A DNA stretch of 64,000 bases from Planobispora longispora. GTDB lineage: Bacteria; Actinomycetota; Actinomycetes; Streptosporangiales; Streptosporangiaceae. A model generated the notes under the pieces. The model saw nothing but the letters and a program-made list of their open reading frames with translations, ran no database searches and was not told where the DNA came from. The number at the start of each line of letters is the position of its first letter. Positions within the stretch are counted from its first letter, which is position 1. Of this stretch, positions 1 to 46,463 are shown in pieces. The DNA lies in assembly GCF_016863135.1 (NCBI RefSeq), contig NZ_BOOH01000039.1, positions 124,001-188,000 of the forward strand. Direction: 5' to 3'. A program made the position numbers and the translations under genes.

Positions 1-607
1 CCATGGTCTCGGCCTCTCCGGGGACGATCCCGAAGAAGTCGGCGTCGAATCCGGCCACGTCGCCGAGGAAGCCGCCGTGGCGGGTGGTCCTGGCCAGGGC
101 CTCGGCCGTGCGCGGGGAGCCGTCGTCGAAGGCCTCCCACCGCCCCTCGGGCACCTGCCCGACCCCGTCCCCGCCGGTCATGAGCAGCCGCCAGAACTCC
201 TCCGGGCCGTGAACGGGCCCGGGCAGGCGGCAGCCGACGCCGATGACCGCGATCGGCTCGTCGTGGCGGGCGGGCCGTACGGCCGGCGGGGCGGGCGCCG
301 TACCGGACGGCAGGTCCCCCCGGCCGCGGGCCGCGCCGGATCCCGTGCCCTCCGCGGCGCGGGCCGCCCCGGCCGCCAGACCGCGGGCGAGGCGGTTGAT
401 CGTCGGATACTCCCAGACCAGCGTCGGTCCCAGTTCCCGGCCCAGCAGCGCCTCCAGCTCCCCCGCCACGGCGACCGCGTCACGCGAGGACAGCCCGAAC
501 TCCTCCAGGGGGCGGTCCGGGTCGACGGCGGAAAGGGGGGTCCGGCACCGGGTGGCGATCCGGTCCGTGAGGAAGCGACGGATCTCGTCTTCGCCGAGCA
601 GATCCAC
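1..607 (-). CDS. Pks13-like polyketide synthase, N-terminal ACP-KS (partial)
   Basis: About 202 residues are visible; the gene continues past the left edge. A GTG start at 607 follows GGGAG by seven bases. Residues 1-75 form an acyl carrier protein with the motif EFGLSSRDAV; the second serine (about residue 41) is the expected phosphopantetheine site. An Ala/Pro/Arg linker leads to a ketosynthase N-terminus at about residue 110 (PIAVIGVGCRLPGP, then GRWEAF and GFDADFFGI). An ACP placed before the first KS, the exact LSSRDAV sequence and the KS insertions match mycobacterial Pks13, which condenses two fatty chains into mycolic acid precursors. The FadD32-like ligase at 10609-12363 is the expected loading partner. 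Later domains (AT, second ACP, thioesterase) cannot be seen, so another ACP-first type I PKS remains possible. Confidence 0.85.
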   Translation of the reverse strand, partial: MDLLGEDEIRRFLTDRIATRCRTPLSAVDPDRPLEEFGLSSRDAVAVAGELEALLGRELGPTLVWEYPTINRLARGLAAGAARAAEGTGSGAARGRGDLPSGTAPAPPAVRPARHDEPIAVIGVGCRLPGPVHGPEEFWRLLMTGGDGVGQVPEGRWEAFDDGSPRTAEALARTTRHGGFLGDVAGFDADFFGIVPGEAETM

Positions 608-701
608 GGGCGTCTCCCAACGACAGCCGAAGTGATCGGTCAAACTACCGAGACCGAAAGGCGTAAAGGAGACCTGACAACCCACAATCCACCAGGGCGT
701 T

Positions 702-719
702 TTGTCACGATTGTGATAA
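702..719. promoter_or_regulatory. Imperfect palindrome between PKS and esterase
   Basis: The halves TTGTCACGA and TTGTGATAA are inverted repeats with seven of nine positions matching. The site lies 95 bp upstream of the PKS start and 145 bp upstream of the divergent esterase, in the most AT-rich part of the intergenic region. A shared operator is plausible; no regulator can be assigned. Confidence 0.35.
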
Positions 720-863
720 CGGCCACACATGCGCAGTGATTTGTCCGCGAGGCTCAAGCGACCCCGGTTCTTTCGTTGCGGACACGCATAGCCACCTGCC
801 GATCACCGGTCTACCCTCGCCTGCCACGGCCTTCTGTCGTCAGGCCGGATGGAGGGGAAAAGC

Positions 864-2027
864 ATGCGATCTGTCCGGCATGGACTCCTGGCGCTCGCGA
901 CCGCGGGAGCCGTCGGCCTCCCCGCGACGGCGGCGCAGGCGACCCCGGTCCGGCCCATGGGCCCGGCGGGCACGACAGGCGCCGCCCAGCAGGCGCAGGA
1001 CCCGGTCCCCTCCACCGGGAAGAGTCCCTCGGGTCCCTGGCGGGCCGCGATGCCCGGCGGCGCGCGCGTGGTCGCCGAGAAGTGGCTCGGCCCGCGCACG
1101 CTGGACATCCTGATCTCCTCGCCGTCGGTCAACGCGATGTTGCCGGTCCGGCTGCTGCTGCCCCCGGGCTGGTCGAAGAAGGCCGAGCGCACCTGGCCGG
1201 TGCTCTATCTGCTCCACGGCGGTGCGGACAACTACACGTCGTGGACGAGGATGACCGGCGTCGAGGAGCTCACCGAGAACGTCGGCGCGATCGTCGTGAT
1301 GCCCGAGGCGGGTCGCGCCGGCAACTACAGCAACTGGTTCAACAAGGGTAAGGGCGGCCCTCCCGCCTGGGAGACCTTTCACACCTACGAGGTGCGCCGA
1401 CTGCTGGAGGTCGGCTACCGGGCCGGGACCCGCAGGGCCGTCGCGGGCCTGTCCATGGGGGCGTACGGATCCATCAAGTACGCCGCGCGCCACCCCGGCA
1501 TGTTCCGCTTCGCCGGCGCCTACAGCGGAGTCATGTCCACCCGCCTGCCCGGCATCCCCGACGTCATCATGAACGCCCAGGCGTCCGAGGGACAGGATCC
1601 CAAGGCCCTGTGGGGCGACCCGATCAGGAACGCCTCCGTCTGGCGGGCCAACGACCCCGCCCACCTGGCCAGGAACCTGCGCGGCGTGAGCATCTACATC
1701 TCCAGCGGCACCACCAGCCTGAACGGCGAACTCGACCCGCCCGGGACCCCCTGGCACCCGGCCCACCTGGGCGAGCCGGTCTCGGCCTACACCGCCAGGC
1801 ACCTGATCGCCAAGCTCCGGCTGTACGGCATCAAGCCGGTGGTGAACCTCTACAAGAACGGCACCCACAGCTGGCCGTACTGGGAGCGCGAGTTCAAGCG
1901 CTCCTTCCCCATGATCCTGAAGGCCCTCGGCGCGAAGCGCTCCTCCCCGGAGAGCGAGGCGCAGGACGAGCAGGATCCCCCGTCCTCGTCCGAGCCCGAG
2001 GGCCGGGAGTGGAGCCCGCTGGACTAG
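864..2027 (+). CDS. Secreted antigen-85-like esterase/acyltransferase
   Basis: A 387-residue alpha/beta hydrolase. The ATG at 864 follows GGAGGGG by six bases and is preferred to an in-frame ATG at 849. Residues 1 to about 26 are a Sec signal peptide (hydrophobic core, cleavage near TAAQA). The fold starts with LLLPPGW and VLYLLHGGADNYTSW (oxyanion region). The nucleophile elbow is GLSMGAYGS with Ser197, and the catalytic His is about residue 335 in GTHSWPYW. This layout is that of the esterase D/antigen 85 family, whose mycobacterial members transfer mycolates to trehalose and arabinogalactan. The C-terminal 40 residues are acidic and look disordered. Divergence from a Pks13-like gene suggests extracellular acyl transfer; a plain secreted esterase is the alternative. 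Confidence 0.8.
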   Translation: MRSVRHGLLALATAGAVGLPATAAQATPVRPMGPAGTTGAAQQAQDPVPSTGKSPSGPWRAAMPGGARVVAEKWLGPRTLDILISSPSVNAMLPVRLLLPPGWSKKAERTWPVLYLLHGGADNYTSWTRMTGVEELTENVGAIVVMPEAGRAGNYSNWFNKGKGGPPAWETFHTYEVRRLLEVGYRAGTRRAVAGLSMGAYGSIKYAARHPGMFRFAGAYSGVMSTRLPGIPDVIMNAQASEGQDPKALWGDPIRNASVWRANDPAHLARNLRGVSIYISSGTTSLNGELDPPGTPWHPAHLGEPVSAYTARHLIAKLRLYGIKPVVNLYKNGTHSWPYWEREFKRSFPMILKALGAKRSSPESEAQDEQDPPSSSEPEGREWSPLD

Positions 2028-2061
2028 GGCGCGCCTTCCGGGCCGCCCGGCCGGGACGCGT

Positions 2062-2094
2062 CGCCCCGAAGCGCCTCAGGCGGTCTTCGGGGCG
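2062..2094. terminator. Hairpin terminator between convergent genes
   Basis: Perfect 10-bp arms CGCCCCGAAG and CTTCGGGGCG enclose a further CGCC/GGCG stem. It sits between the stops of the esterase (2027) and the secreted protein (2102), so it can serve both. There is no T-tract, as is common in actinomycetes. Confidence 0.75.
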
Positions 2095-2101
2095 GCGGTC
2101 C

Positions 2102-3475
2102 TCAGGCCGTGGTGAGATACACGTGGCCGAAGACCTCGGCGAACTTCTTGAGGTCGGCGGCGGTGTCCGTCTCGGGCGTGGCCGGGTTGTAGACGGCGGC
2201 CATCCGGCGCTGGATCGGGCCGAGCTTCTTCAGGGCGTCCCAGGCGGTCAGGTGCTTGACGCCGCCCTGGGCGTCCTGGACCCGGGTCCAGAGGTTGACC
2301 TGCTGGGCCCCGCCGTCCATGACCGGGGCGGAGACTCCGGCGGCGACCTCGTCGGTGGCGACGTCGCCGACCAGGCCGGTCTCCTCGGCGGCGATCTGAG
2401 CCAGCACGTCCCAGGCGCGGGCGCGGACCTGGATCCACTGGTTGCGCTGGGCCGCCTCGGCGTCGATCTTCCAGGTCTCGTAGCCGCCGCGGAACAGGCC
2501 GCTGTCCAGGGAGATCTGGTCGACGCCCCCGCCGGCCAGGTAGAGCTCGATCTTCTCGGGGGCGAGCAGCGGGTACCGCTTGGCCATCTCTGCCTTGCAC
2601 GCCTCCTCGGCGCCGCACGCGAACTCGGGCACGACCGTGTGCACGCCCAGCTGCTTGCCGGGGGCCGCCTGGCGGAGCGCGCCGGACGCGCCCGCGACGA
2701 AGGCGGTTATCTCCTCCTGCGTCGTGAACGTCGTGTTGTAGCCGAGCTGCGCGGTGAACCGGATGCCGGCCACCTCGGGCCGCGCGGCCAGCGCGCCGAT
2801 CCGCTTGACGGCCGCGGCGAAGGCCGCCGGGCCCGCCTTCCAGTCGTCGGCCAGCTCGGTGTCGATCCAGACGCGCAGGCCGGTGGCCCGCGCGGCGGTG
2901 ACGGCCTGCCCCGCCGGGGTCTGCGCCGCGGCGGCGACCTCCTGCGCGGTGGGCGGCCGCGTCCCGGTCGCCACGGAGGGCTGGGTCACGGTGGAGGACC
3001 GGTTCGCCGTCGATCCCGGCCCGGTGAAGCTGCCGTCGTCGGGCACCGGGGACCCGCTCTCCCCGCCCTGGTCGTGCCCGTCGACCGAGCACCGCTGACC
3101 GGCCTCGCACTCGGGCGTGCCGCCGTCCTCGGCGCCCTCCGGCGCGGGAGAGCCGTCGTCCCCGACGGTCCCGTCGCCTCCCGGATCCTCGGGGCAGGAG
3201 ACCCCGGGGTCGGAGCAGTTGGAGAACAGCCCGGGGTACGGGGTCGACTCCTTCATGTTGGCGCCGTCGTCGGCCAGCCAGAACAGCGCGGTGCCGAGTG
3301 CCTCTTCGGGCCGGTGCATCCAGGTGCACTGGACGAAGGCCGGGGTGTCCGCACCCAGCAGATCACGGCAGTCGTCGGCGTTGTCCTGGGAGTAGGCCGC
3401 CCCGACGGGAGCCACGACGCCGATCAGCGCGAACACGGAGCCGACGGCGGCGACTCGCCGCAGATTCAGTCGCAT
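2102..3475 (-). CDS. Secreted protein of unknown function
   Basis: A 457-residue protein with a clear signal peptide (MRLNLRRVAAVGSVFALIGV, cleavage near AAYSQ). ATG at 3475 with GGGGAG seven bases upstream is preferred over the adjoining GTG at 3478. Mature residues 20 to about 150 are Gly/Asp/Ser-rich with six or more cysteines (CRDLL, CTW, CSDPGVSC, CEAGQRC), suggesting disulphides. Residues of about 165-457 look like an alternating alpha/beta barrel (GLRVWIDTEL, GIRFTAQLGYN, LGVHTVVPEFACG, DQISLDSG). I recognise no family motif or catalytic set with certainty; a glycoside-hydrolase-like barrel is a guess. It lies downstream of the glycosyltransferase on the same strand after a 95-bp gap, so it may belong to the lipid locus. 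Confidence 0.75.
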   Translation of the reverse strand: MRLNLRRVAAVGSVFALIGVVAPVGAAYSQDNADDCRDLLGADTPAFVQCTWMHRPEEALGTALFWLADDGANMKESTPYPGLFSNCSDPGVSCPEDPGGDGTVGDDGSPAPEGAEDGGTPECEAGQRCSVDGHDQGGESGSPVPDDGSFTGPGSTANRSSTVTQPSVATGTRPPTAQEVAAAAQTPAGQAVTAARATGLRVWIDTELADDWKAGPAAFAAAVKRIGALAARPEVAGIRFTAQLGYNTTFTTQEEITAFVAGASGALRQAAPGKQLGVHTVVPEFACGAEEACKAEMAKRYPLLAPEKIELYLAGGGVDQISLDSGLFRGGYETWKIDAEAAQRNQWIQVRARAWDVLAQIAAEETGLVGDVATDEVAAGVSAPVMDGGAQQVNLWTRVQDAQGGVKHLTAWDALKKLGPIQRRMAAVYNPATPETDTAADLKKFAEVFGHVYLTTA

Positions 3476-3570
3476 CACGGAACTCCCCGGTAAAGCCGGT
3501 CAAAATCCGACTCGACCTTACCCAGCGCACCACTGTCCGAACAGGTTCGGTAAGGAATTCGTCAAAAACG

Positions 3571-4788
3571 TCACGCCTCCAGGGCCTCGCACGCCCGGGC
3601 CACCCCGTCCTCGGCCCGCAGCCGCTCGCCCAGGCGCGCCGCCGTCGCCCGCATCCCCTCATCCCGCACGGCCCGCGCCACCCGCCAGGTCAGCGCCGCC
3701 GCCGTGAGCCTGCGCACCGGCAACGGCGCCGGCCCGGCTCCCAGCGCCGCCACCCGGGCGCCCCAGAACGGCTGATCGGAGAAGAACGGGCAGACCACTC
3801 CCGGCACCCCGGCCCGCAGCGCCGTCCCGGTCGTCCCGGCGCCCCCGTGGTGCACCACGGCCGCCGTCCTGGGGAACAGCCACGCGTGATCCGTGTCGCC
3901 GGCCGCGAACATGTCATCCGCCCCGCCGTACGGCAGGCCCTGGAGCACGCCGCGCACCCCGGCCGCGCGCAGGGCCGCCACCACGGTCCCGGCGGTCGCC
4001 GCCGGATCGCCCGGGACCATGCTGCCGAAGCCCACGTAGACCGGGGGCGGCCCGGCCGCGAGGAACGCCTCCAGCTCCGGCGGCGGACTCCACCCGCGCC
4101 GCAGGAACCAGTAGCCGGTCAGATGCACGTGCCCCGGCCAGTCCCCGGGACGGCCCACGACCGACGGGCTCACCCCGCACAACACCGGCACGCCGCCGGA
4201 CCGCGCCCGCCGGAAGGGGTCCCCCCGCATCGGGCCGAGCCCGAAGACCCGGCCCCGCAGGCGGTTCACCATCCGGCCCAGCAGCAGCCAGCTCAGCCGC
4301 TCGACGAGCGCGTAACTGCCCCGGTTGCCCCAGCCGCCGAGCGTGCGCAGGGGGACCAGCGGGTTGGGGAAGGCCCGGGTGGGCTCGCTGGGCTGGAAGT
4401 GCAGCAGCGCGTACGGCATGCCGTACCGCTCGGAGAGGTGATGCCCGAGCCCGCCCAGCGCCGGGGCGAGCACCAGGTCCGCATCGGCGCAGGCCGCGTC
4501 CACCTCGGTGACGAGCCGCTCGGCGAGCGGCTCCACGACTCTGCGGAAGCCCCGGACGAACCCGGCGGGCCCGCTCCGCAGCCACGCCTGCCCCTCCTCG
4601 GACTCCACGATCTTCAACGGGTCCACGCTGATCGGGGCGTGCTCCAGGCCCGCCTCCCCGACCAGTCCGCCGTACCGCCCGGCCGCGACGACCGTCACCC
4701 GATGACCGCGCGCCACGAGCCCGGCCCCCAGCGCCACGCACGGCTGGGTGTCGCCTCGCGAGCCGAACGCCAGGATCGCGATCCTCAT
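3571..4788 (-). CDS. GT1-family glycosyltransferase
   Basis: A 405-residue GT-B enzyme. The N-terminal acceptor domain opens with MRIAILAFGSRGDTQPCVALG, as in MGT/UGT and sterol or phenolic-glycolipid glycosyltransferases. The nucleotide-sugar signature is in the C-terminal half: VYVGFGSM near residue 250 and HHGGAGTTGTALRAGVP near residues 308-325. No signal peptide is seen; the cytoplasmic face of the membrane is the likely site. Its ATG overlaps the stop of the MFS gene by four bases (ATGA), so the two are translationally coupled. In context it probably adds a sugar to the lipid made or moved by the PKS/FAAL/MmpL system. Sugar and acceptor cannot be read from sequence; an antibiotic or macrolide glycosyltransferase is the alternative. 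Confidence 0.85.
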   Translation of the reverse strand: MRIAILAFGSRGDTQPCVALGAGLVARGHRVTVVAAGRYGGLVGEAGLEHAPISVDPLKIVESEEGQAWLRSGPAGFVRGFRRVVEPLAERLVTEVDAACADADLVLAPALGGLGHHLSERYGMPYALLHFQPSEPTRAFPNPLVPLRTLGGWGNRGSYALVERLSWLLLGRMVNRLRGRVFGLGPMRGDPFRRARSGGVPVLCGVSPSVVGRPGDWPGHVHLTGYWFLRRGWSPPPELEAFLAAGPPPVYVGFGSMVPGDPAATAGTVVAALRAAGVRGVLQGLPYGGADDMFAAGDTDHAWLFPRTAAVVHHGGAGTTGTALRAGVPGVVCPFFSDQPFWGARVAALGAGPAPLPVRRLTAAALTWRVARAVRDEGMRATAARLGERLRAEDGVARACEALEA

Positions 4789-6305
4789 CGGAGGCTCACC
4801 AGGCTGACGGCGGCTCCGGCCGCGACGAGCGCGGCGGCGGTGAGCAGGCCGGTGGAGTAACCGGCGGTGAAAGTCGCGGAGCCGCTGACGATCACCCCGA
4901 TGAGCGCGATGCCGAACAGCCCCGAGACCTCACGCGCGACGCTGAACACGCCGCCCGCGACGCCCGCCCGCGTCTCCGGCACCGCGCCCAGCACGGCCGA
5001 GCCCAGCGGCATGGTCAGCGCCGAGCCGATCCCGATCACGCACACGGCGGGAAGCAGCTCCGCCCAGCCGTCCCCCGGCCGCAGGAACGCCACCGCGACC
5101 ATGCCCGCCGCCACCAGGACCAGTCCCAGGGCGACCGTGCGGCTCGCGCCGAGACGGCCCTCCAGCGCCGGGACCAGCGGCGTGACCACGACGACGAGCA
5201 GGGCCAGCGGCACGAAGGCCAGGCCCGAGGCCGTCGGGCTGAAACCGAGGACCCCCTGGAGGAACAGTGCCGTGAAGAAGAACACGCCGTTGACGCCGAG
5301 ACCCCAGAGCACCTGGGCGACCACCCCGCCGGTGAACGCCCGCGCCCGGAACAGCTCCAGATCGACCATCGGATCGCGGCCGAGCCGCTCCACCGCGACG
5401 AAGACGACCGCCGTGACCGCGCTGACCGCCAGCGCGGCCAGGATCACCGGCGAGGTCCAGCCCAGCTCGGCCCCGAAGGTCAGCCCGAACGTCCCGGCCG
5501 AGAGCACGACGACCGAGGCCGCGACCCCGGGGACGTCCACGCGGGCGGCCGTGTCGTCACGGGATTCAGGTACGGCGACGGCCGCGAGGGCGATCACCGC
5601 GGCGCCGAGGGGAACGTTGAGCAGGAAGACCCAGCTCCAGTGGGCGTGCTGGGTGAGGTAGCCGCCGACCACCGGGCCGAGGGCGAGCGCGCCCGCGCCG
5701 GAGGCCATCCAGACGGCGACGCCGACCGACCGTCGCCGGTCGTCGTTGCCGACGGAGACGACGGCCAGCATCGCGGGCAGGATCAGCGCGGCCCCGCATC
5801 CCTGGACCAGACGCGCCGCGACCAGGGCGCCCGCCGAACCGGCCAGCCCCGCGGCGAGGGACGCCAGCGTGAAGACCACGAGCCCGGCGAGGAGCACCTT
5901 GCGGCGGCCGTACACGTCGGCCAGGCGGCCCCCGGCGAGCATCAGCCCGGCGAAGGTCAGGACGTACCCGGTGACGACCCATTCGAGGGTCGCCAGCGAC
6001 GCGCCCAGCTCGGTCTGGATGGTGGGCAGAGCGACCGTGACGACCGTGTTGTCCAGGGTCGTCACGAACCCCGCCAGCCCGACGACCAGCAACAACAACG
6101 CACGCCGGACCGGCGGCGGGCCCGCGCGGGTTCGCCCGGCGGGGACCTGCCCCGCGCCGTTCGGCTCGACGGGGACCTGCCCCGCGTGAGTTTGCTCGGT
6201 GGGGACCTGCCCCGTGTGGGTTCGCCCAGCGGGGACCTGTCCCACGCGATTCGGCTTGGCGGGAACCGATACCGGGTCGGCCGGTCCCGCGGCGAGGTCG
6301 CTCAC
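4785..6305 (-). CDS. MFS transporter, DHA2 (14-TM) type
   Basis: About 506 residues. The GTG at 6305 overlaps the MmpL stop (GTGA) and is preceded by GAGGTGG, so it is chosen over an upstream ATG at 6329. Residues 1 to about 62 are a hydrophilic tail built of a 10-residue repeat (GQVPAGRTHT, GQVPTEQTHA and so on). TM1 starts at ALLLLVVGLAGFVTTLDNTVV; motif C-type LDNTVVTVALPTI, motif A GGRLADVYGRRKVLLAG and RLVQGCGAALILPA are typical of DHA2 drug/H+ antiporters such as EmrB/LfrA relatives. Fourteen hydrophobic segments fit the length. It is coupled to MmpL upstream and the glycosyltransferase downstream, so it may export or flip a glycolipid intermediate; general drug efflux is the alternative. 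Confidence 0.85.
   Translation of the reverse strand: MSDLAAGPADPVSVPAKPNRVGQVPAGRTHTGQVPTEQTHAGQVPVEPNGAGQVPAGRTRAGPPPVRRALLLLVVGLAGFVTTLDNTVVTVALPTIQTELGASLATLEWVVTGYVLTFAGLMLAGGRLADVYGRRKVLLAGLVVFTLASLAAGLAGSAGALVAARLVQGCGAALILPAMLAVVSVGNDDRRRSVGVAVWMASGAGALALGPVVGGYLTQHAHWSWVFLLNVPLGAAVIALAAVAVPESRDDTAARVDVPGVAASVVVLSAGTFGLTFGAELGWTSPVILAALAVSAVTAVVFVAVERLGRDPMVDLELFRARAFTGGVVAQVLWGLGVNGVFFFTALFLQGVLGFSPTASGLAFVPLALLVVVVTPLVPALEGRLGASRTVALGLVLVAAGMVAVAFLRPGDGWAELLPAVCVIGIGSALTMPLGSAVLGAVPETRAGVAGGVFSVAREVSGLFGIALIGVIVSGSATFTAGYSTGLLTAAALVAAGAAVSLVSLR
6131..6270. repeat. 30-bp tandem repeat in the MFS gene
   Basis: The block GGGGACCTGCCCC recurs at 6141, 6171, 6201 and 6231, with a degenerate fifth copy at 6261, at exactly 30-bp spacing. 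It encodes the 10-residue GQVP repeat at the MFS N-terminus. The exact in-frame period suggests copy-number slippage without loss of frame. Confidence 0.85.
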
Positions 6306-9300
6306 TCGTCCACCTCGACCCACATCCATCCGGATCCATCCGGCTTGGGCCGTACGACCCGGGTGGTCCGCCGTTCCACGGCCGCCCAGCCACCGGCCCG
6401 CTCCGGTCGACGGGACGCGGGTTCGGGTTGCGGCGCGGGCCCCGGCCGGGCGGCGGGCGCGGGCGCCGGTACCGGTTGCGGAGCAGCCTGCGGTATGGCC
6501 GCGGGGTGCTCTTCGACCACCGGCGCGGCGACCGGCTGCGGGACGACCGCCGCGTCGGCCGAGGGCTGGAACACCGGCGGCGGCGCGACCGGGGGCTGAA
6601 CGACCGGGGGCCGGGTGGGCGGAGGTTGAGTGACCAACGGCGGGACGACCGGGGGCGGGACGACCGGAGGCTGAACGGGTGGGGGTGGCGCAGCCGGAAG
6701 CCGGGTGACCGGGGGCGGCACGACCGGAGGCGGGGCAGGTGGAGGTGGCGCAGCCGGAAGCTGGACGGGCTGCGCGTAGGCGACGGGCTGCGAGGCTTCC
6801 GGCTGAGCGACGACCGGGGGCAGCGCGATGGCCCGTACTTCTTCGACCGGTTCCGGATCGACTCCGGGGGGTCCGGTGATCGGAACGATCCGCTTGCCGC
6901 GCTGCGGCCGCACCGGCGGCTCCAGCTGGTCGATGAGGTGGTTGCTGATCCCCGGCCTGCTCCGCGCATGGCGTGCGTCCTCGGCATCCGCCTCGGAGCC
7001 GCTCGCGCGCGACACCGGAGCGGGAAGCGCGGGGCGCGCCTCGGGGGCGGGACGCGAAGGCGCCTCAGGGGCCGGGACCGGGGGCGGGGCGGGAAGCGGG
7101 TGGACCGCGGGCACATTCGGCGGTTGCGGCGGCGCCGCAGGCACAACAGGCGGCTGCGCGTGAACGACAGGCGCGGCTGGCGGTGGTGAGGGCGCAGCGG
7201 GCGGTTGCGGCGGCGCCGCAGGTGCTACAGGCGGCTGCGCGTGGATGACAGGTACGGCTGGCGGGGGCGCAGCGGGCGGGGCCGGTGGTCGTGGTTGGGC
7301 CGGGGGTGCAGTGGGGGGGTGGCCGTGTTCCCGCGGCGTCAGGTTCTGGGGGGCGGGGTGGGACGGTGGGACGGGGTCCTCCTCGTCCACCTCGGCCCAG
7401 TGCCAGCCGGGGGCGTTCACGTTCGGCTTGACGACCTTCTTCTTCCGGCCGCGCGCCGGACCGGCCGGAGCCGTCGGGGCGGCATGCTCCGCGGCCGTGG
7501 GACGGGGCTCGGGCTGGGGGGACGGAACCGGCGGCGTGGGTTCGGGACTGTAAGCCTGTGACATGAGCTCCGAGGCAGGGTGGAGGGAAGCCGAGGCGTC
7601 GGACGGCGCGACGGTGTAGGGGTCCGGCTGCTGCCGGGACGGAGGTCTGGGACCGGTGTAGGGCTGAAGCCCGTTGGCGGGCACGAGCCCCGCGGAGCCG
7701 TTGGCGGGAAACGGACCGGGAACGCCGTTGGAAAAACCGGGGTCGGCTGCCGCGGGAACACCGGTGGACGCGAGGTCGGACATGAGGTCGGACGCGGCAT
7801 CCGGTGCGGGACGGGGTGCGGCGCCGGGTTCGGGATCGATTCCGGGATCGGACGCGTGATCGGGCATCCCACTGGTCGCCGCCACGGGCACGCCGTTACG
7901 ACCGGGTCTGTACGGATCGTGATGAGCGGATCCGGACAGACCGCCGCGAGCGAGGCCGGGCAGATCATCGTGAACGAGTTCGGGCAGACCGCTGTGGGCG
8001 TGTCCTGGCAGATCATCGTGAACGAGGCCGGGCAGACCGCTGTGGGCGGGTCCAGGCAGACCGCCTTGAGCGGGAACGGGCAGGTCACCGGGGGCATGTC
8101 CGGGCGGACCGTCGTGAGCCGGGGTGGGCGGGTCACCCGGGGTGGGAGCGGGCTGACCGTCGGGGGTGTTGTGAACACCGTTGGAAGCGGCCGGGAGGGG
8201 GATGGCGGGGGTCCGGGGCGGCGGGAGGGACGCCTCCGGGCGGCGGGACCGGACGGCGCGGTGCGCGCCGGTTCCGGCGCCGATGCCGCGGCCGCGGCCC
8301 GTGCCGGCGGCGACCTCGCGCTCCACCGTCATGGAGGCCCCACCGGGAGGGAGCGCTCCAATGGGAAGGGCGTGCTCGCGGGGCTCACGGAGTTCGATCC
8401 GCCGGTGGAAGCTCCGCAGGCCGGCCGGCAGCCACCAGTTGGCGTTGCCCATCAGCCGCATCGTCGCGGGCACCAGCAGCGCCCGGACCAGCGTCGCGTC
8501 CACGACGATGGCCACGAACATGCCGACGCCGAGCATCTTCACCACGGTGATCCCGGCGGTGGAGAAGGCGGCGATGACCACCAGCAGCAGCAGGGCGGCG
8601 CTGGTGATCAGGCCGCCGGTCCGTTCCAGGCCGGCCGCCACGGCGGCGGTGTTGTCCCCGGTCCGCAGCCACTCCGCCCGCACCCTGCTGAGCAGGAACA
8701 GCTCGTAGTCCATCGACAGGCCGAACACCACCGCCAGGATCAGGACGGTGACGGTCGCCTCGATGGCTCCGGTCGGGGTGAACCCCAGCGGGCCCGCGAG
8801 GTTGCCGTCCTGGAACGCCCACACGATCACACCGAAGGACGCCCCCAGGGACAGGACGTTCATCAGGATCGCCTTGATCGGCAGCAGGATCGAGCCGAAC
8901 GCGGCGAACAGCAGCAGGCCGATCATCAGGCAGACGACCAGGGCGGTCCACGGCAGCGTGGCGGTCAGGCTGGCCTGGAGGTCGAGCTGCGCGGCGGTGG
9001 GCCCGCCGACGACCACGTCCCGGAAGTCGGGGTCGCGGGGCAGGTCGCGGATCTCTTCGACCAGCGCGCGGGCCTCGTCCGACATGGGGTCCTCGTCGTA
9101 GCGGACCGCGAGCCGTACCGCGCCGTTGTTCTGCGAGATGCCCGTGACGGCGACCCCGGTGACGTGGTCGAGCCCCTTGAGCCGGTCGGCGAAGGCCTTC
9201 ACGTCCAGCGGGCCGATCTCGGTGACGGGGCTGATCCCGGAGTTGCCGACCCCGACCGGGCCGACGCGCCCGCCCACCTCCGAGGGGAGCGCGCCCGGCG

Positions 9301-10609
9301 CGGCGGCGGTCATCGGCCCGACCAGGGTGCGTTCGACGAGCACGACGACCTCGATGGGCGACATCGCGTTCCTGGCGAAGTCCCGGTCGATCCGCTCGGC
9401 GACCTGGCGGCTCTCGAACCGCTCGGGCAGCACCCGGTGGTCCACGTTGCCGAAGCGCACGTGCAGGAACGGCGCGGCCAGCGCGAGCAGCACCACGCTG
9501 ACGCCGACCAGGTAGAGCACGGGCCGCTTCATCACGCTGGAGGCGATCGCGTGCCAGGTCCCCCCGCTCCGGCGCATGCCGAAGTCAGGCATGATCTTGA
9601 TGGCGTCGACCTTCGGACCGAGCACGGCCAGCAGCGCGGGCAGCACGATCAGCGCCGCCGCCATCGCGACCAGCACCACCGCCGCCGCGCCCAGCCCGAG
9701 CGAGCGCAGGAACATCTGCGGGAACAGCAGCAGCCCGCACAGCGAGGTCGCCACGGTCAGGCCGGAGAAGGCGACCGTCCGCCCGGCCGTCGCCATGGTC
9801 CGCACGACCGCCGTCTCCACCGGGGAGCCCCGGTGGACCTCCTCGCGGAAGGCGTTCAGGACGAACAGGGAGTAGTCGATGGCCAGGCCGAGGCCGAGCA
9901 TCGTGACGACGTTCAGCGAGAAGACCGAGACGTCGGTGATCTCGGTGAGCAGCCGGAGCAGCGCGAGCGCGCCGATCACCGAGAGCAGCCCGACGACGAG
10001 CGGGAGCCCGGCGGCGACCAGGCTGCCGAAGACGACGGCGAGCAGGACCAGCAGGACCGGCATCGAGATCGCCTCGGCCTGCTGCAGGTCGAGGCTGGTC
10101 TGCGTGTTGAGGTCCTTCAGCAGCGGGATCCGGCCGCCGACCTGGACGGTGTACCCGGCCGGGGCCGCCCGGAGCCGCTTCTCGATCGCGGTGTAGCCGT
10201 TCTGCTTGGTCAGTTCGCCGCCGCGCAGGCTGACCAGCGCGTAGGTGGAGTGCCTGTCGGTGGAGACGAGCTCCCCGGCCTTGCTCGTCCAGTAGGTGGT
10301 CAGCTTGGTGACGTGCCCGGCGGGAAGCCCCTTCAGGGCCGTGTGCACGGCCTCCTTGAACCGGTCGTCGTCGGCGTCGATCTCCGGGTTCGTGTAGAGC
10401 ACGACCACGTCGGGCGAGCTGCCGCCGAACCACTTCCCGCTCCACTGCGCGGCCATGGTGGACTCGGCCCCGGGGTCGTCGAACCCGCCGTCGGTCATCC
10501 GGCCGAACAGCCCCAGCCCGAGGTACCCGGCCACGACGGCGAACACCGTCCCCAGCGCCAGCAGGGACCAGCGCCCTCGGTAGACGGCCCGTCCAAGCGA
10601 CTCGAACAT
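6302..10609 (-). CDS. MmpL-family RND lipid exporter with long Pro-rich C-tail
   Basis: About 1,435 residues. The ATG at 10609 shares its A with the FAAL stop (TGATG), so the genes are coupled. Residues 1 to about 735 are the MmpL core: TM1 near LLALGTVFAVVAGYLGL, two large periplasmic loops and about twelve TM segments. Both proton-relay Asp-Tyr pairs are present, GLGLAIDYSLFVLNAFREE (about 243) and VFGLSMDYELFLLSRVRAE (about 631), as in MmpL3. The remaining 700 residues are a Pro/Ala-rich, probably disordered cytoplasmic tail, far longer than the MmpL3 C-domain. It holds a 16-residue repeat and two copies of a motif ending in GWHWAEVDE (near residue 1070) and GWMWVEVDE (the very C-terminus). 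MmpL proteins export bulky lipids such as trehalose monomycolate; here the cargo is probably the PKS/FAAL product. Confidence 0.9.
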   Translation of the reverse strand: MFESLGRAVYRGRWSLLALGTVFAVVAGYLGLGLFGRMTDGGFDDPGAESTMAAQWSGKWFGGSSPDVVVLYTNPEIDADDDRFKEAVHTALKGLPAGHVTKLTTYWTSKAGELVSTDRHSTYALVSLRGGELTKQNGYTAIEKRLRAAPAGYTVQVGGRIPLLKDLNTQTSLDLQQAEAISMPVLLVLLAVVFGSLVAAGLPLVVGLLSVIGALALLRLLTEITDVSVFSLNVVTMLGLGLAIDYSLFVLNAFREEVHRGSPVETAVVRTMATAGRTVAFSGLTVATSLCGLLLFPQMFLRSLGLGAAAVVLVAMAAALIVLPALLAVLGPKVDAIKIMPDFGMRRSGGTWHAIASSVMKRPVLYLVGVSVVLLALAAPFLHVRFGNVDHRVLPERFESRQVAERIDRDFARNAMSPIEVVVLVERTLVGPMTAAAPGALPSEVGGRVGPVGVGNSGISPVTEIGPLDVKAFADRLKGLDHVTGVAVTGISQNNGAVRLAVRYDEDPMSDEARALVEEIRDLPRDPDFRDVVVGGPTAAQLDLQASLTATLPWTALVVCLMIGLLLFAAFGSILLPIKAILMNVLSLGASFGVIVWAFQDGNLAGPLGFTPTGAIEATVTVLILAVVFGLSMDYELFLLSRVRAEWLRTGDNTAAVAAGLERTGGLITSAALLLLVVIAAFSTAGITVVKMLGVGMFVAIVVDATLVRALLVPATMRLMGNANWWLPAGLRSFHRRIELREPREHALPIGALPPGGASMTVEREVAAGTGRGRGIGAGTGAHRAVRSRRPEASLPPPRTPAIPLPAASNGVHNTPDGQPAPTPGDPPTPAHDGPPGHAPGDLPVPAQGGLPGPAHSGLPGLVHDDLPGHAHSGLPELVHDDLPGLARGGLSGSAHHDPYRPGRNGVPVAATSGMPDHASDPGIDPEPGAAPRPAPDAASDLMSDLASTGVPAAADPGFSNGVPGPFPANGSAGLVPANGLQPYTGPRPPSRQQPDPYTVAPSDASASLHPASELMSQAYSPEPTPPVPSPQPEPRPTAAEHAAPTAPAGPARGRKKKVVKPNVNAPGWHWAEVDEEDPVPPSHPAPQNLTPREHGHPPTAPPAQPRPPAPPAAPPPAVPVIHAQPPVAPAAPPQPPAAPSPPPAAPVVHAQPPVVPAAPPQPPNVPAVHPLPAPPPVPAPEAPSRPAPEARPALPAPVSRASGSEADAEDARHARSRPGISNHLIDQLEPPVRPQRGKRIVPITGPPGVDPEPVEEVRAIALPPVVAQPEASQPVAYAQPVQLPAAPPPPAPPPVVPPPVTRLPAAPPPPVQPPVVPPPVVPPLVTQPPPTRPPVVQPPVAPPPVFQPSADAAVVPQPVAAPVVEEHPAAIPQAAPQPVPAPAPAARPGPAPQPEPASRRPERAGGWAAVERRTTRVVRPKPDGSGWMWVEVDE
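7959..8054. repeat. 48-bp tandem duplication in the MmpL tail
   Basis: Two adjacent 48-bp units starting at 7959 and 8007 match at 44 of 48 positions. They encode the 16-residue unit seen as HSGLPGLVHDDLPGHA, with more diverged copies on both sides. Confidence 0.8.
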
Positions 10610-12363
10610 CAGGCTCCGGCATCCTCTGCGGCGGGGTCCGGGGCCGCTCCGAAGACGCCGTCGAGGTAAGCCCGCGCGCACGCGCGCCGGGCGATCTTCC
10701 CGCTCGACGTGCGCGGTACGGCGCCCGCCTCGACCAGCACGAAATCGTGCAGCCGCAGGTCGTGGTTGCGGGCGACGGCGGCCCGGATGGTGGCCGCGAT
10801 CTCGGCGGGGTCCCGGCCCTCGGCCTTGCGGGAGCGCTCGGCCACCACCACCAGCCGCTCGGTCTCCTCCCCCGGCACCGCGAACGCCGCCACGTGGTCC
10901 CGGCGGACGGCGGGGTCGGCCTCCTGCACGGTGACTTCCACATCCTGTGGATAGTGGTTGCGCCCGTCCACGATGATCAGGTCCTTGATCCGTCCGGTGA
11001 TGTAGAGCTCACCCTCGTGGATCACGCCCAGGTCCCCGGTCCGCAGCCAGGTCCCCTCCGCGCCCCCGAGCACGTTGCCGAAGGTCTCCGCGGTGCGCTC
11101 CTCGTCGCGCCAGTAGGCTCTCGCCACGTTCGGCCCGCGCACCCAGATCTCGCCGACCTCGCCGTCGGGCCCGGCCGTGCCGTCCTCGGCCACGATCACC
11201 ACGTCCTGGCCGGTCGGCACCCCGCAGGAGACCAGCTCGCTGACCCGCCCGGCGGGCGCCTGCCCGGATCCGCCGGACGGCGCCGCGACCGGCACGGCCC
11301 GCCCGGCGGTGAGCGCGTCCCGGTCGAACGCGGTCACCCGGACCGGCAGGCCCCGGTCCATCGCCGTGACGAACACGGTCGCCTCCGCCAGGCCGTACCC
11401 GGGGGTGTGCGCCTCGGGACGGAGCCCGCAGGCGGCGAACGCCTCGGAGAACCGGTGGATCGTGCTGCCCCGGAGCGGTTCGGCGCCGTTGAGCATGACC
11501 GCGACCCCGGACAGGTCGAGCGTGGCCTTCTCCGCCTCGGTGACCCGGCTCGCGGTGTACTCGTAGGCGAAGTTGGGGCCGCCGGTGAACACGTCGTCGT
11601 ACTCGCTGAGCAGGCGCAGCCACCGGACCGGGTGCATGATGAACGCCACCGGGTCCATGAAGACCGCCTGGTTCCCGCCGACGATCGGCGCGGCGATCGT
11701 CGCGATCAGGCCCATGTCGTGGAAGAGCGGCAGCCACAGCACCGCCGTGGACGTGCGGGGCGCGGCGCGGAACGCCTCCCAGAGCTGCTCGGCGTTGGCG
11801 GTGAAGTTGCCGTGGCTGATCTCGACCCCGGCCGGGACGCGCGTGGAGCCCGAGGTGTACTGCAGGTAGGCCAGGTCGCCCCGGGTGATCGGCTCCGGCT
11901 CCCACTCGTCGGCGAGCAGGTCGGAGACCGTGTCCATGGTGATGATCGCCTTGGGCCGGGGCGCGGCCTGCCCGTCGATGAAGGCCTTGACGCTCTCCGT
12001 GGCGGGGGTCGTGGTGAGCACGCAGACGGGGTCGGCGTCGGAGTAGGCCCGGACCAGACGGTCGGCGTGACCGGGCAGGTCGGGGGCGAACAGCGGTACC
12101 GCGATCACCCGCGCGTACATCGTGGCGAGCATCGCGACCACGTACTCCAGCCCCTGCGGCGCCAGGATCGCCGCCCGGTCCCCGGGGCTGGCCACCTCGC
12201 GCAGCCGTACGGCCAGCGCCCTCGCCCGCAGGTCCGCCTCGGCCCAGGAGAGCGTGTGCCGGGTCCCCTCGGCGGAGTCCGCGTAGTCCACGAAGGTGTA
12301 GGCCGGTGCGTCCGGGATCTCCCTCGCCCACCGCGCGACTCGGAGGATCAGCGGCTCGCTCAT
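10609..12363 (-). CDS. FadD32-like fatty acyl-AMP ligase (FAAL)
   Basis: A 584-residue adenylating enzyme. ATG at 12363 (MSEPLILRVARW) has GAGGGG upstream. The phosphate-binding P-loop is YLQYTSGSTRVPAGV (about residues 160-175); the Arg-x-Pro-Ala-Gly-Val wording is that of FadD32 rather than generic acyl-CoA synthetases. Other motifs are LPLFHDMGLI, GGPNFAYEY, PGYGLAEATVFV, the Asp of LRTGDLG, IVDGRNHYPQDVE and the catalytic Lys of PRTSSGKIARRA. FAALs make acyl-adenylates and load them on a PKS acyl carrier protein, in mycobacteria FadD32 onto the N-terminal ACP of Pks13, which is the domain present at 1-607. It is the first gene of the coupled set FAAL > MmpL > MFS > GT. Chain length cannot be predicted. 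Confidence 0.92.
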   Translation of the reverse strand: MSEPLILRVARWAREIPDAPAYTFVDYADSAEGTRHTLSWAEADLRARALAVRLREVASPGDRAAILAPQGLEYVVAMLATMYARVIAVPLFAPDLPGHADRLVRAYSDADPVCVLTTTPATESVKAFIDGQAAPRPKAIITMDTVSDLLADEWEPEPITRGDLAYLQYTSGSTRVPAGVEISHGNFTANAEQLWEAFRAAPRTSTAVLWLPLFHDMGLIATIAAPIVGGNQAVFMDPVAFIMHPVRWLRLLSEYDDVFTGGPNFAYEYTASRVTEAEKATLDLSGVAVMLNGAEPLRGSTIHRFSEAFAACGLRPEAHTPGYGLAEATVFVTAMDRGLPVRVTAFDRDALTAGRAVPVAAPSGGSGQAPAGRVSELVSCGVPTGQDVVIVAEDGTAGPDGEVGEIWVRGPNVARAYWRDEERTAETFGNVLGGAEGTWLRTGDLGVIHEGELYITGRIKDLIIVDGRNHYPQDVEVTVQEADPAVRRDHVAAFAVPGEETERLVVVAERSRKAEGRDPAEIAATIRAAVARNHDLRLHDFVLVEAGAVPRTSSGKIARRACARAYLDGVFGAAPDPAAEDAGA

Positions 12364-12575: not shown

Positions 12576-12602
12576 ATGCACCGCACTTCGTGGACGCCCT
12601 GA
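12576..12602 (+). CDS. Leaderless upstream mini-ORF (8 residues)
   Basis: ATG at 12576 opens the peptide MHRTSWTP, and its TGA at 12600-12602 overlaps the ATG of the IclR gene (TGATG). With the -10 box six bases upstream it would be read from a leaderless mRNA. The IclR start has no ribosome binding site, so reinitiation after this mini-ORF is the simplest way to translate it. The call is inferential because the peptide is too short for codon statistics. Confidence 0.45.
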   Translation: MHRTSWTP

Positions 12603-13234
12603 TGGCGGCCGAGTCCTCGCAGACCCTCGACCGCGGCCTGCGCCTGCTCCGACTGCTCGCCGACGGCCACCGCGGTCGCACCCCCACCGAGCTCGCGACC
12701 GAGCTGGAGCTGAGCCGCCCGGCCGTCTACCGTCTGCTCACGACCCTGCAGAAGGAGGGCTTCGTCCGCCGCGACGGCGACGGCCGCGTCCACCTCGGCT
12801 TCGCCGTGCTCGTCCTGGCGCGCGCCGTGCAGCCCCTGCTGCGCGAGGGGGCCCTGCCCACCCTGCGCCGGCTGGCCGAGGAGGTCGGCGCCACCGCCCA
12901 CCTGACCGTGTCCGAGGGCGAGGACGGCCTGGCGGTGGCGGTCGTGGAGCCGTCCTGGACCGACATGCACGTCGCCTACCGCGAGGGTTCCCGCCATCCC
13001 CTGTCCCGGGGCGCGGCGGGCCTGGCCATCCTCGCCCTGCGCGGGGGCCGGACCGGTTACGTCGCCACCGAGGGCCAGCTCCAGGAGGGCGCCCACGGCG
13101 TCGCCGCCCCCGTCCCCGGCCTCCCCTGGCTGGAGGCCTCCGTCGGCGTCGTCTCCTTCACCTCCCTCGATCCCGCCGTCATCGGCCCCCGCGTCGCCAC
13201 CGCCGCCGAGTCCCTCTCCCGCTCCCTGGCCTGA
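12602..13234 (+). CDS. IclR-family transcriptional regulator
   Basis: A 210-residue protein. The N-terminal winged helix-turn-helix (about residues 5-65) includes SSQTLDRGLRLLRLLADG and LELSRPAVYRLLTTLQKEGF with the beta wing VRRDGDGRVHLG. The rest resembles the IclR ligand-binding domain (LRRLAEEVGATAHLTVSEG, HPLSRGAAGLAILA) but is about 40 residues shorter than usual. ATG at 12602 overlaps the stop of a leaderless mini-ORF; an in-frame GTG at 12590 is the alternative. It is divergent from the FAAL operon across a 226-bp gap and may control it, which is only an inference from position. Ligand unknown. Confidence 0.88.
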   Translation: MAAESSQTLDRGLRLLRLLADGHRGRTPTELATELELSRPAVYRLLTTLQKEGFVRRDGDGRVHLGFAVLVLARAVQPLLREGALPTLRRLAEEVGATAHLTVSEGEDGLAVAVVEPSWTDMHVAYREGSRHPLSRGAAGLAILALRGGRTGYVATEGQLQEGAHGVAAPVPGLPWLEASVGVVSFTSLDPAVIGPRVATAAESLSRSLA

Positions 13235-41414: not shown

Positions 41415-42620
41415 ATGCAGATCGACCTGCTTGAGGACACCTGGGAGCGCGGCGTCCCGCACGGGCAGTTCGCCCGCCTCCGCAAGGAGGCGCCGGTCTT
41501 CTGGCACGAGGTGCCGGACGACACGGGCTTCTGGGCCGTCACCCGCTATCACGACGTCAAGGCGATCAGCCGCGACCACCAGACCTGGTCCAGCGAGGCC
41601 GGCGGCACCTTCATCCGCACGCTGTCATCGCAGGAGATGGCGGTCGCGCGGCTGATGCTGCTCAACATGGACCCGCCCAAGCAGAGCCGCTACCGCAGGC
41701 TGGTCAGCGCCGGGTTCACCCCGCGGACGGTCGGGAAGCTGGCGGAGGCGATCCGGGCGCGCGCCGCGCGGATCGCCGACACGGTGGCGGACAAGGACGG
41801 GGAGGTCGAGTTCGTCGCCGACGTGGCCCAGCACCTCCCGCTCCAGACGATCTGCGACATGGTCGGGGTACCCGAATCGGACCACCAGATGATCTTCGAC
41901 TGGTCCAACCGGCTGAGCGGCTCCCAGGATCCCGACTTCCAGAGCGGCCCGGACGACGGCGACGACGCCGGGGCGGAGATGTTCGTCTACTGCGACGGGC
42001 TGGTCGAGGAGCGGCGCGCGAACCCCCGCGACGACATCCTCACCGCGCTGATCAACGCCGAGATCGACGGCGACAAGCTCAGCCGCGACGAGATCGACGC
42101 CTTCTTCGTCATGTTGACCGTGGCCGGGAACGAGACCACCCGCAACCTGATCTCGCATGCCGTTCTGGCGCTGATCGAACGCCCCGACGTCTACCGCGAG
42201 CTGGCCGGGAGCCTGGAGGACGAGGAGCTGTGGCGCTCGGCCACCGAGGAGTTCCTGCGCTGGGGCTCCTCCATCCACAACTTCCGCCGCACCGCCCTGC
42301 GCGACACCGAACTGCACGGCCAGAAGATCACCGAAGGCGAGAAGGTCGTCACCTTCTACGCCTCGGCCAACTACGACGAGGAAATCTTCACCGACCCGCT
42401 CACCCTCGACATCCGCCGCATCCCCAACGACCACGTCACCTTCGGCGGCGGCGGCCCCCACTTCTGCCTCGGCGCGGGCCTGGCACGCGCCCAGATCACC
42501 GCGATGCTCCGCGAACTGCTCCGCCGCTTCCCCGCCGCCGAGTTCACCGCCCCGCCCCGGCGCATGCGCTCGGACTTCATCAACGGCATCAAGCACATGC
42601 CGGTCCGCTTCCATCTCTGA
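41415..42620 (+). CDS. Cytochrome P450 (first of two paralogues)
   Basis: A 401-residue P450, ATG at 41415 after GGAAGGGGG. I-helix LTVAGNETTRN, ExxR-type EEFLRW, and the haem loop FGGGGPHFCLGAG with Cys351. N-terminal wording (FWAVTRYHDVKAISRD, LLNMDPPKQSRYRRLVSAGFTPR) resembles the CYP124/125/142 clade that hydroxylates methyl-branched lipids or sterol side chains. No redox partner gene is adjacent. It is a close paralogue of the P450 at 45258-46463; parts of the two genes are identical at DNA level. A soluble class I enzyme is expected; the substrate is not established. Confidence 0.93.
   Translation: MQIDLLEDTWERGVPHGQFARLRKEAPVFWHEVPDDTGFWAVTRYHDVKAISRDHQTWSSEAGGTFIRTLSSQEMAVARLMLLNMDPPKQSRYRRLVSAGFTPRTVGKLAEAIRARAARIADTVADKDGEVEFVADVAQHLPLQTICDMVGVPESDHQMIFDWSNRLSGSQDPDFQSGPDDGDDAGAEMFVYCDGLVEERRANPRDDILTALINAEIDGDKLSRDEIDAFFVMLTVAGNETTRNLISHAVLALIERPDVYRELAGSLEDEELWRSATEEFLRWGSSIHNFRRTALRDTELHGQKITEGEKVVTFYASANYDEEIFTDPLTLDIRRIPNDHVTFGGGGPHFCLGAGLARAQITAMLRELLRRFPAAEFTAPPRRMRSDFINGIKHMPVRFHL
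42228..42612. repeat. 385-bp tract identical to 46071-46455
   Basis: From CTGTGGCGCTCGG to just before the last codons, the 3' part of this P450 gene matches the second P450 base for base over 385 bp, third codon positions included. Middle segments of the same genes differ at many positions. This is the signature of recent gene conversion. Confidence 0.92.
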
Positions 42621-45257: not shown

Positions 45258-46463
45258 ATGCAGATCGACCTGCTTGAGGACACCTGGGAGCGAGAGGTCC
45301 CGCACGGGCAGTTCGCCCGCCTCCGCAAGGAGGCGCCGGTCTTCTGGCACGAGGTGCCGGACGACACGGGCTTCTGGGCCGTCACCCGCTATCACGACGT
45401 CAAGGCGATCAGCCGCGACCACCAGACCTGGTCCACCGAGGCGGGAAGCACCTTCATCCGCACGCAGAAGCCGGAGGAACTGGAGGTCATGCGGCTGATG
45501 CTGCTCAACATGGACCCGCCCCGGCAGAGCCGCTATCGCAAGCTGGTCAGCGCGGGGTTCACCCCCCGCATGATCCGCAGGCTCACGGAGACCATCCAGG
45601 CGCGCGCCGCGCGGATCGCCGACAGGGTGACCGAGAAGGACGGGGACGTCGAGTTCGTCGCCGACGTGGCCCAGCACCTCCCGCTCCAGATGATCTGCGA
45701 CATGGTCGGCGTGCCGGAGCCGGACCAGCCGATGATCTTCGACTGGTCCAACCGGATGGTGGGCTTCCAGGACTCCGACTTCCGCACCACCCCCGAGGAC
45801 GGGGAGATCGCCGCGGCGGAGATGTACGCCTACTGCGACGGGCTGGTCGAGGAGCGGCGCGCCAACCCCCGCGACGACATCCTCACCGCGCTGATCAACG
45901 CCGAGATCGACGGCGACAAGCTCAGCCGCGACGAGATCGACGCCTTCTTCGTGCTGCTCTCCGTGGCCGGGAACGAGACCACCCGCAACCTGATCGCCCA
46001 CGCCATGCGAGCGCTGATCGAACGCCCCGACGTCTACCGCGAGCTCGCCGACGGCATCGGCGATGACGACCTGTGGCGCTCGGCCACCGAGGAGTTCCTG
46101 CGCTGGGGCTCCTCCATCCACAACTTCCGCCGCACCGCCCTGCGCGACACCGAACTGCACGGCCAGAAGATCACCGAAGGCGAGAAGGTCGTCACCTTCT
46201 ACGCCTCGGCCAACTACGACGAGGAAATCTTCACCGACCCGCTCACCCTCGACATCCGCCGCATCCCCAACGACCACGTCACCTTCGGCGGCGGCGGCCC
46301 CCACTTCTGCCTCGGCGCGGGCCTGGCACGCGCCCAGATCACCGCGATGCTCCGCGAACTGCTCCGCCGCTTCCCCGCCGCCGAGTTCACCGCCCCGCCC
46401 CGGCGCATGCGCTCGGACTTCATCAACGGCATCAAGCACATGCCGGTCCGCTTCCGGCGGTGA
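45258..46463 (+). CDS. Cytochrome P450 (second paralogue)
   Basis: A 401-residue P450, ATG at 45258 preceded by the same GGAAGGG-GCCGTCGGC context as its paralogue. I-helix LSVAGNETTRN, haem loop FGGGGPHFCLGAG (Cys351). It differs from the first copy mainly in the B-C and F-G regions (residues of about 65-180), which usually shape substrate access, while the N-terminal 60 and C-terminal 130 residues are almost the same. Different substrates with a shared redox partner surface is a reasonable inference. Confidence 0.93.
   Translation: MQIDLLEDTWEREVPHGQFARLRKEAPVFWHEVPDDTGFWAVTRYHDVKAISRDHQTWSTEAGSTFIRTQKPEELEVMRLMLLNMDPPRQSRYRKLVSAGFTPRMIRRLTETIQARAARIADRVTEKDGDVEFVADVAQHLPLQMICDMVGVPEPDQPMIFDWSNRMVGFQDSDFRTTPEDGEIAAAEMYAYCDGLVEERRANPRDDILTALINAEIDGDKLSRDEIDAFFVLLSVAGNETTRNLIAHAMRALIERPDVYRELADGIGDDDLWRSATEEFLRWGSSIHNFRRTALRDTELHGQKITEGEKVVTFYASANYDEEIFTDPLTLDIRRIPNDHVTFGGGGPHFCLGAGLARAQITAMLRELLRRFPAAEFTAPPRRMRSDFINGIKHMPVRFRR
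46071..46455. repeat. 385-bp tract identical to 42228-42612
   Basis: Second copy of the gene-conversion tract in the paralogous P450 gene. Shorter identical blocks also occur at the 5' ends of both genes and around the TACTGCGACGGGCTGGTCGA region. Confidence 0.92.

Follow-up and report, generated by a model that had tools for sequence, protein, structure and literature searches.

The closest described counterpart of the genes considered here is the fadD32-pks13-accD4 locus of the mycolata, which is accompanied by MmpL3 and Ag85/PS1. In excerpts of a review, mycolic acids are described as exclusive to Corynebacteriales, the origin of the mycomembrane is called a mystery, and arabinogalactan is thought to have come first (PMC6194230). 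Two other kinds of system are also comparable, namely PpsA with a FadD26-type fatty acyl-AMP ligase (FAAL), for phthiocerol dimycocerosates (PDIM), and the polyketide synthases (PKSs) of cinnabaramide and antimycin, which are fed by a crotonyl-CoA carboxylase/reductase (CCR). A gene set from Planobispora longispora will be compared here with these systems. It is located at the start of a stretch of 64,000 nucleotides (the window; contig C39, positions 124001-188000, of a genome of 8.84 Mb in 120 contigs). Sequence beyond the window edge was taken from the same contig, and negative positions lie outside the window. Loci, genomes and families are referred to by L, G and f numbers.

The comparison is based on genes, domains, catalytic residues, motifs, relationships and co-conservation, all observed directly. 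As in the mycolata locus, a FAAL stands beside a PKS that begins with an acyl carrier protein (ACP), the acyltransferase (AT) motif and the thioesterase (TE) are of the Pks13 type, and a carboxylation gene is located directly behind the PKS. A transporter of the MmpL3 group and a PS1-like secreted enzyme are present as well. There are clear differences, however. The PKS contains a ketoreductase (KR), a CCR takes the place of AccD4 (an AccD4-like gene is found in two f17 loci), and there are additional genes for a glycosyltransferase (GT), a major facilitator superfamily (MFS) exporter and a secreted protein. Moreover, the genome has no Emb, and the cut-offs of the corresponding protein models are not reached.

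On balance, we consider it somewhat probable that this operon-like set works like the mycolic condensation system and makes a mycolate-type lipid by a CCR route. The FAAL would activate a fatty acid and load it onto the first ACP, and the CCR would convert a medium- or long-chain 2-enoyl-CoA to alkylmalonyl-CoA by reductive carboxylation. The AT would place the alkylmalonyl unit on the second ACP, the ketosynthase (KS) would carry out a Claisen-type condensation to a 2-alkyl-3-keto chain, and the built-in KR would turn the 3-keto into a 3-hydroxy group, giving an acyl chain with the 2-alkyl-3-hydroxy motif of mycolic acids. The Pks13-type TE would then hand the acyl chain to a polyol or sugar, and the GT may attach a sugar. 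Export would be carried out by the MmpL3-like transporter, and acyl transfer to an outer acceptor by the secreted PS1/Ag85-like enzyme. The substrates, chain lengths, product, acceptor, order of the export steps and location in this scheme are predicted from sequence.

The conserved gene set seems suited to the production, export and attachment of a mycolate-like branched lipid outside the mycolata, with CCR as a different enzyme supplying the branch. Among the matches listed in a literature search, which covered subscription journals poorly, no title or start of an abstract describes the cluster. The terms crotonyl, MmpL, Nonomuraea and Pks13 are absent from the available main text of a FAAL review (PMC11837247).

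The polyketide synthase and the supply of the branch

The PKS is a single module ending in a TE, and unlike Pks13 it has a built-in KR. Its architecture and its score below the cut-off of the Pks13 model (NCBIfam NF040607, 2100 bits) place it outside the Pks13 family. This cut-off is passed in 24 of 296 genomes of the class, all of them from the mycolata (family f4). The ACP-first PKS that an earlier note on this DNA had recognized from the motif GLSSRDAV is present, but the domain order that the note had proposed to look for, KS-AT-ACP-TE behind the first ACP, was not found, as a KR and the remnant of a dehydratase (DH) are also part of the enzyme. A multi-module or unrelated PKS, which the note had named as telling against its reading, was rejected, since there is one module with a TE, the KS and AT are close to those of Pks13 and PpsA, and the TE is close to that of Pks13. 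The reductive domains that it had mentioned in the same way are represented by one, the KR.

Compared on its own, the TE matches the Pks13 TE over the full length (2.4e-35), and the next solved family over about half (1e-19). The Pks13 TE is described, in the available portion of the source, as releasing its product onto polyols, with trehalose preferred (PMC9210659).

The Lys, Ser, Tyr and Asn residues of the KR are retained in 41 of 41 rows; the five Streptomyces rows have GGLTGLG as the cofactor loop, and L148 has a gap there. For the DH, the N-terminal half alone matches Pfam, and the motif His is Asp or Asn in 5 of 21 rows. The hydroxyl is probably kept, because the KR residues are intact and only the N-terminal half of the DH is present. 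A β-keto product is ruled out by the intact KR residues. The 2-alkyl-3-keto (mycolate-like) lipid of the earlier note is therefore modified to a predicted 2-alkyl-3-hydroxy acid. An active dehydratase was judged unlikely from the half domain and the variable His, with no alignment to an active DH. An Asp in an LDD-type loop marks B-type KRs, and its presence here suggests a B-type KR and the (3R) configuration, as in mycolates.

For the trees, the cluster, Pks13 and other rows were thinned, and rows that were long or duplicated were omitted. In the KS tree, the cluster groups with Pks13 (support 82/90), then with PpsA (94/92), inside a wider FAAL-loaded group (98/99). In the AT tree, cluster and Pks13 ATs are together (95/94), apart from the Pps ATs.

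In the part of a study that is available, HAFH is given as the malonyl motif and YASH as the methylmalonyl motif of ATs (PMC6164871). The equivalent motif is GAGH in all 30 Streptosporangiaceae-type cluster ATs and in 3 of 3 from G072, the Nocardiopsaceae and G103. The five Streptomyces cluster ATs have GAGH (three) or AAGH (two), and the four f17 cluster ATs have GAGH (one), GAAH (one) or GGAH (two). The 24 Pks13 ATs have GASH (18) or GAGH (6), and GA-x-H occurs in none of the 31 other ATs (of 32) that can be read at the motif. These rows are distinct sequences, and L001, which duplicates the AT of the window, was omitted. The GA-x-H motif may reflect a larger extender. All 108 ATs whose serine motif can be read have the carboxylate-binding Arg at Ser+25; this site is intact and does not discriminate among the ATs.

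The CCR clearly exceeds the cut-off of its model, and its nearest solved protein is CinF (4a0s; 3.8e-168). In the accessible text of two reports, CinF is an octenoyl-CoA enzyme for dedicated extender supply (PMC5719088), and AntE, together with AntD, provides a CCR-fed alkylmalonyl extender in antimycin (PMC6117356). In the printed alignments, the window CCR shares the Ala163 and Gly362 of CinF, and three crotonyl-type proteins have Ile and Phe at these positions, which were counted by hand from the alignment. The Ala and Gly are found in all 37 distinct cluster CCRs. A housekeeping CCR is unlikely, as no other protein of the genome exceeds the CCR cut-off (the runner-up match has 84 bits) and the gene is located in the cluster. 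The dedicated CCR, which would make an alkylmalonyl extender, is shared with the cinnabaramide and antimycin PKSs. In contrast to those, the PKS here would be FAAL-loaded, has a Pks13-type TE, and is accompanied by an MmpL3-like transporter and a PS1-like enzyme.

Of the distinct PKS loci, 40 extend 1.3 kb or more beyond the TE (45 before removal of five duplicates from genomes fetched twice), and 35 of these have a CCR within 300 nt. The five loci without an adjacent CCR are L113 and four f17 loci. In Streptomyces, the CCR is on the opposite strand in the four loci having one. In two of the loci of f17, another actinomycete family, namely L144 (G411) and L148 (G202), an AccD4-like gene lies directly behind a FAAL-PKS pair of this kind, overlapping the PKS stop, with 47-52% identity to the genes following pks13 at eight loci. 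Neither a CCR nor an AccD4-like gene adjoins the PKS in the other two, L145 and L146. The branch is probably alkyl, because of the GA-x-H motif of the AT, the AT tree, the CinF-like CCR, its being the sole CCR of the genome, and its adjacency to the PKS.

Acyl-AMP ligase, transporter and secreted hydrolase

The FAAL scores 596 bits with PRK12476, 575 with the FadD32 model (NF038339) and 569 with PRK05850, placing it between groups. In the FAAL tree, the cluster is sister to FadD32 (87/79). Of 394 genomes of the class, 67 have a FAAL with an E value of 1e-115 or below; 34 of these genomes belong to the mycolata family f4, and the remaining 33 lie outside it. The figure covers every FAAL of this strength, whether or not it is part of a cluster.

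The window MmpL falls in the MmpL3 group of the MmpL tree (97/96). This group includes L196, which is above the MmpL3 cut-off, and also L181 (G411) and L183 (G103), MmpLs that lie outside the cluster.

The secreted hydrolase is closest to the mycolyltransferase PS1, with weaker matches to Cmt1 and Ag85A-C. Ser202, Glu309 and His340 are invariant in 10 sequences and are the candidate catalytic triad. The signal peptide was assessed by eye. A quick tree places the 13 sequences of the mycolata together on one side, with a support of 99. The enzyme may function as an acyl transferase like PS1 and Ag85. Two OtsA-type genes over the cut-off are found in the genome.

The C-terminal tail of the window MmpL (6302-8239, minus strand) is about 645 residues long and Pro-rich, with 181 prolines. 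The length of the protein is about 1290-1440 residues in Planobispora and Planomonospora, and 816 and 906 residues in two Nonomuraea.

Distribution of the gene set and competing explanations

When named genomes were scanned with an alignment of the hydrolase, 59 loci were obtained. The cluster or pieces of it make up 33 of them (L057-L089), from six Streptosporangiaceae-type genera (Planobispora, Planomonospora, Streptosporangium, Nonomuraea (with [Actinomadura] parvosata), Thermoactinospora and Bailinhaonella). All eight genes are carried by 13 of the 33; the others are cut by the end of a contig or stretch, have insertions or a rearrangement, or have a gene missing from the fetched stretch. 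The gene arrangement is beyond chance, because 13 of these 33 loci carry all eight genes. Looser forms of the cluster are found in the Nocardiopsaceae (L094) and in five Streptomyces (L101, L112-L115). L055 and L154 (G103) have a variant arrangement, with the FAAL and MmpL genes, two tandem PS1-like hydrolases, and then the GT, MFS, PKS and CCR genes.

The hydrolase could also be an unrelated secreted esterase that is a chance neighbor of a lipid PKS cluster. Its gene is divergent from that of the PKS, other genes surround it at L041 and L047, and 20 loci, 18 of them from Actinomadura, have such a hydrolase in a stretch without the cluster. On the other hand, the hydrolase adjoins the PKS or CCR in Bailinhaonella, Streptomyces and three of the four f17 loci, and is within the cluster in G072 and the Nocardiopsaceae. 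We regard a chance neighbor as very improbable.

The cluster-free PS1-like esterases (L090-L093, L095-L100, L102-L111) come from Actinomadura, Spirillospora and a metagenome-assembled genome of the Streptosporangiaceae, with a second copy in four of the 20. Weak PKS matches are present at L093 (39%) and L095 (33%), and a weak MmpL match at L099.

Several observations weigh against a mycolate-type system. The window PKS reaches 1166 bits with the Pks13 model, below its cut-off, and L235, which we take to be a PpsA-type PKS from its genomic place, reaches 1036 bits and, apart from lacking the TE, matches its domain order. The FAAL is below the FadD32 cut-off of NF038339 (975 bits). The window MmpL has 405 bits with the MmpL3 model (NF052608, cut-off 1400), also below, and is on par with L177 (410 bits), outside the MmpL3 group; this score was dropped as evidence because it does not discriminate between the two. 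The role of CinF positions 163 and 362 as determinants of chain length is our assumption. No Emb arabinosyltransferase was found in the genome, and among 14 control genomes C. glutamicum alone was positive. The fetched stretches of the five Streptomyces and the four f17 loci showed no MmpL, and those of L050 and L094 no GT. In approximately unbiased tests, grouping of the cluster with Pps ATs (p 0.18), with PpsA in the KS (p 0.39) and with FadD26-type FAALs (p 0.33) was not rejected. The KS and FAAL phylogeny that the earlier note had suggested groups the cluster with Pks13 and FadD32 but does not reject kinship with the PpsA and FadD26 types, and it was considered too weak as proof of Pks13/FadD32 descent. 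Finally, in the available passages, mycolic acids are described as absent from Streptosporangiaceae, Planobispora named among them (PMC6113628), and likewise from a Nonomuraea species (PMC10694255). A mycolate-type condensation, export and transfer toolkit in such a lineage is what the earlier note had proposed, and the results support it. Short 2-alkyl-3-hydroxy acids may go undetected in routine tests.

The tests on the KS, FAAL and AT do not exclude kinship with PpsA, and the order of L235 is ACP-KS-AT-DH remnant-KR-ACP. These observations would fit a single elongation of the PpsA/PDIM type, in which a FAAL-loaded chain would be extended with malonyl-CoA, reduced by the KR and released as an unbranched 3-hydroxy acid, with the CCR serving another purpose. 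Both systems share FAAL loading and the wider KS clade. However, L235 is without a TE match and the Pps-type AT motif is VAPH, whereas the motif here is GAGH, the AT tree favors Pks13, and the TE is of the Pks13 type. Moreover, the CCR gene is adjacent to the PKS, coupled by 4 nt, and encodes the only CCR of the genome; to our knowledge, a CCR is not expected in the PpsA/PDIM system. An elongation of this type is improbable here.

The GT and the DHA2-type MFS exporter, coupled to the FAAL-MmpL run, suit another explanation, a secreted natural-product glycolipid with the function of a surfactant or antibiotic. The GT would glycosylate the same branched hydroxy acid, the MFS exporter and the MmpL would carry the product out of the cell, and the hydrolase would serve in maturation or resistance, with no role in the envelope. 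Glucolipsin and cycloviracin may be models for such compounds, glycosylated 3-hydroxy fatty acids that would suit the FAAL, PKS and GT. In addition, regulators flank the gene set, and the Streptomyces forms keep the FAAL, PKS, hydrolase and GT (and the CCR in four of five) with no MmpL in the stretch. However, the set is conserved, in a way that looks vertical, among many species of Nonomuraea, Planobispora, Planomonospora and Streptosporangium, the transporter is in the MmpL3 group and the hydrolase is nearest to PS1, and the core persists at the two loci where a GT was not seen. We therefore consider a secreted glycolipid unlikely, though not negligible.

The mycolate-type reading can be extended to the envelope. 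Streptosporangiaceae and other non-mycolata may have a true mycolate-type envelope lipid, made by the CCR route and attached without arabinogalactan. In that case, the tools for condensation, export and transfer would have existed, or evolved in parallel, beyond the mycolata, and AccD4 and CCR could replace each other in supplying the branch. We put this forward tentatively, as a possibility that falls short of being probable. If it is true, a FAAL, a Pks13-like PKS, an MmpL3-like transporter and a PS1-like transferase would have been co-inherited without Emb, and the arabinogalactan-first order would be testable in soil bacteria. Reductive carboxylation would then be a second chemistry for the mycolate branch.

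Gene layout and neighboring genes

Table 1. Positions and supporting matches of the genes in and next to the window
Feature	Position	Strand	Basis
PKS, N-terminal part (ACP and start of KS)	1..607	-	Pfam domains, motifs; GLSSRDAV in first ACP
Whole PKS, 2242 aa	607 to -6121 (L010:7879-14607)	-	ACP-KS-AT-(N-terminal DH remnant)-KR-ACP-TE by Pfam
CCR, 436 aa	-7428..-6118 (L010:6572-7882), outside window		TIGR01751, 540.5 bits (cut-off 378.6)
Secreted PS1/Ag85-like hydrolase, 392 aa	849..2027	+	PF00756; motif GLSMGAYGS; PS1 1.4e-50
Secreted protein of unknown family, 457 aa	2102..3475	-	Without Pfam or NCBIfam match
GT1-type GT, 405 aa	3571..4788	-	PF06722, PF03033, PF00201
DHA2-type MFS exporter, 506 aa	4785..6305	-	TIGR00711, 257.9 bits (cut-off 230.2)
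MmpL transporter, MmpL3 group, 1435 aa	6302..10609	-	PF03176; AIDYSL and SMDYEL; MmpL tree
FAAL, 584 aa	10609..12363	-	GSTRVPAGV; between FadD32 and other FAALs
IclR-type regulator beside FAAL	12590..13234	+	Adjoins FAAL in L042-L045 too

The remaining genes and motifs of the earlier note are in place, including the FAAL with GSTRVPAGV, the antigen-85-like secreted hydrolase with GLSMGAYGS, the MmpL with both Asp-Tyr relays, the GT and the MFS pump. The translational coupling of four genes that it described corresponds to overlaps of 1, 4 and 4 nt for FAAL/MmpL/MFS/GT by their coordinates. The secreted protein at 2102-3475, the KR and TE part of the PKS, and the CCR were absent from it. The start of the CCR gene and the stop of the PKS gene share an overlap of 4 nt. 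The GTG start of the PKS at 607 is the choice of the gene caller, agrees with homologues and is the likely start.

The IclR-type regulator may belong to the system, judging from its position. The regulator beyond the CCR has weak CdaR-family matches and is termed PucR-type here.

The secreted protein at 2102-3475 is retained by most Streptosporangiaceae-type loci. A Foldseek search with its predicted model (mean pLDDT 59.6) gave no match at E<=0.001 and did not yield a usable fold. An alignment of the protein comprised 17 sequences. The low-confidence model carries a hint of a TIM-barrel-like fold in the C-terminal half.

Further along the window, two genes of 401 residues each (41415-42620 and 45258-46463) have almost identical N-termini and are separated by 2.6 kb; they are presumably cytochrome P450-like.

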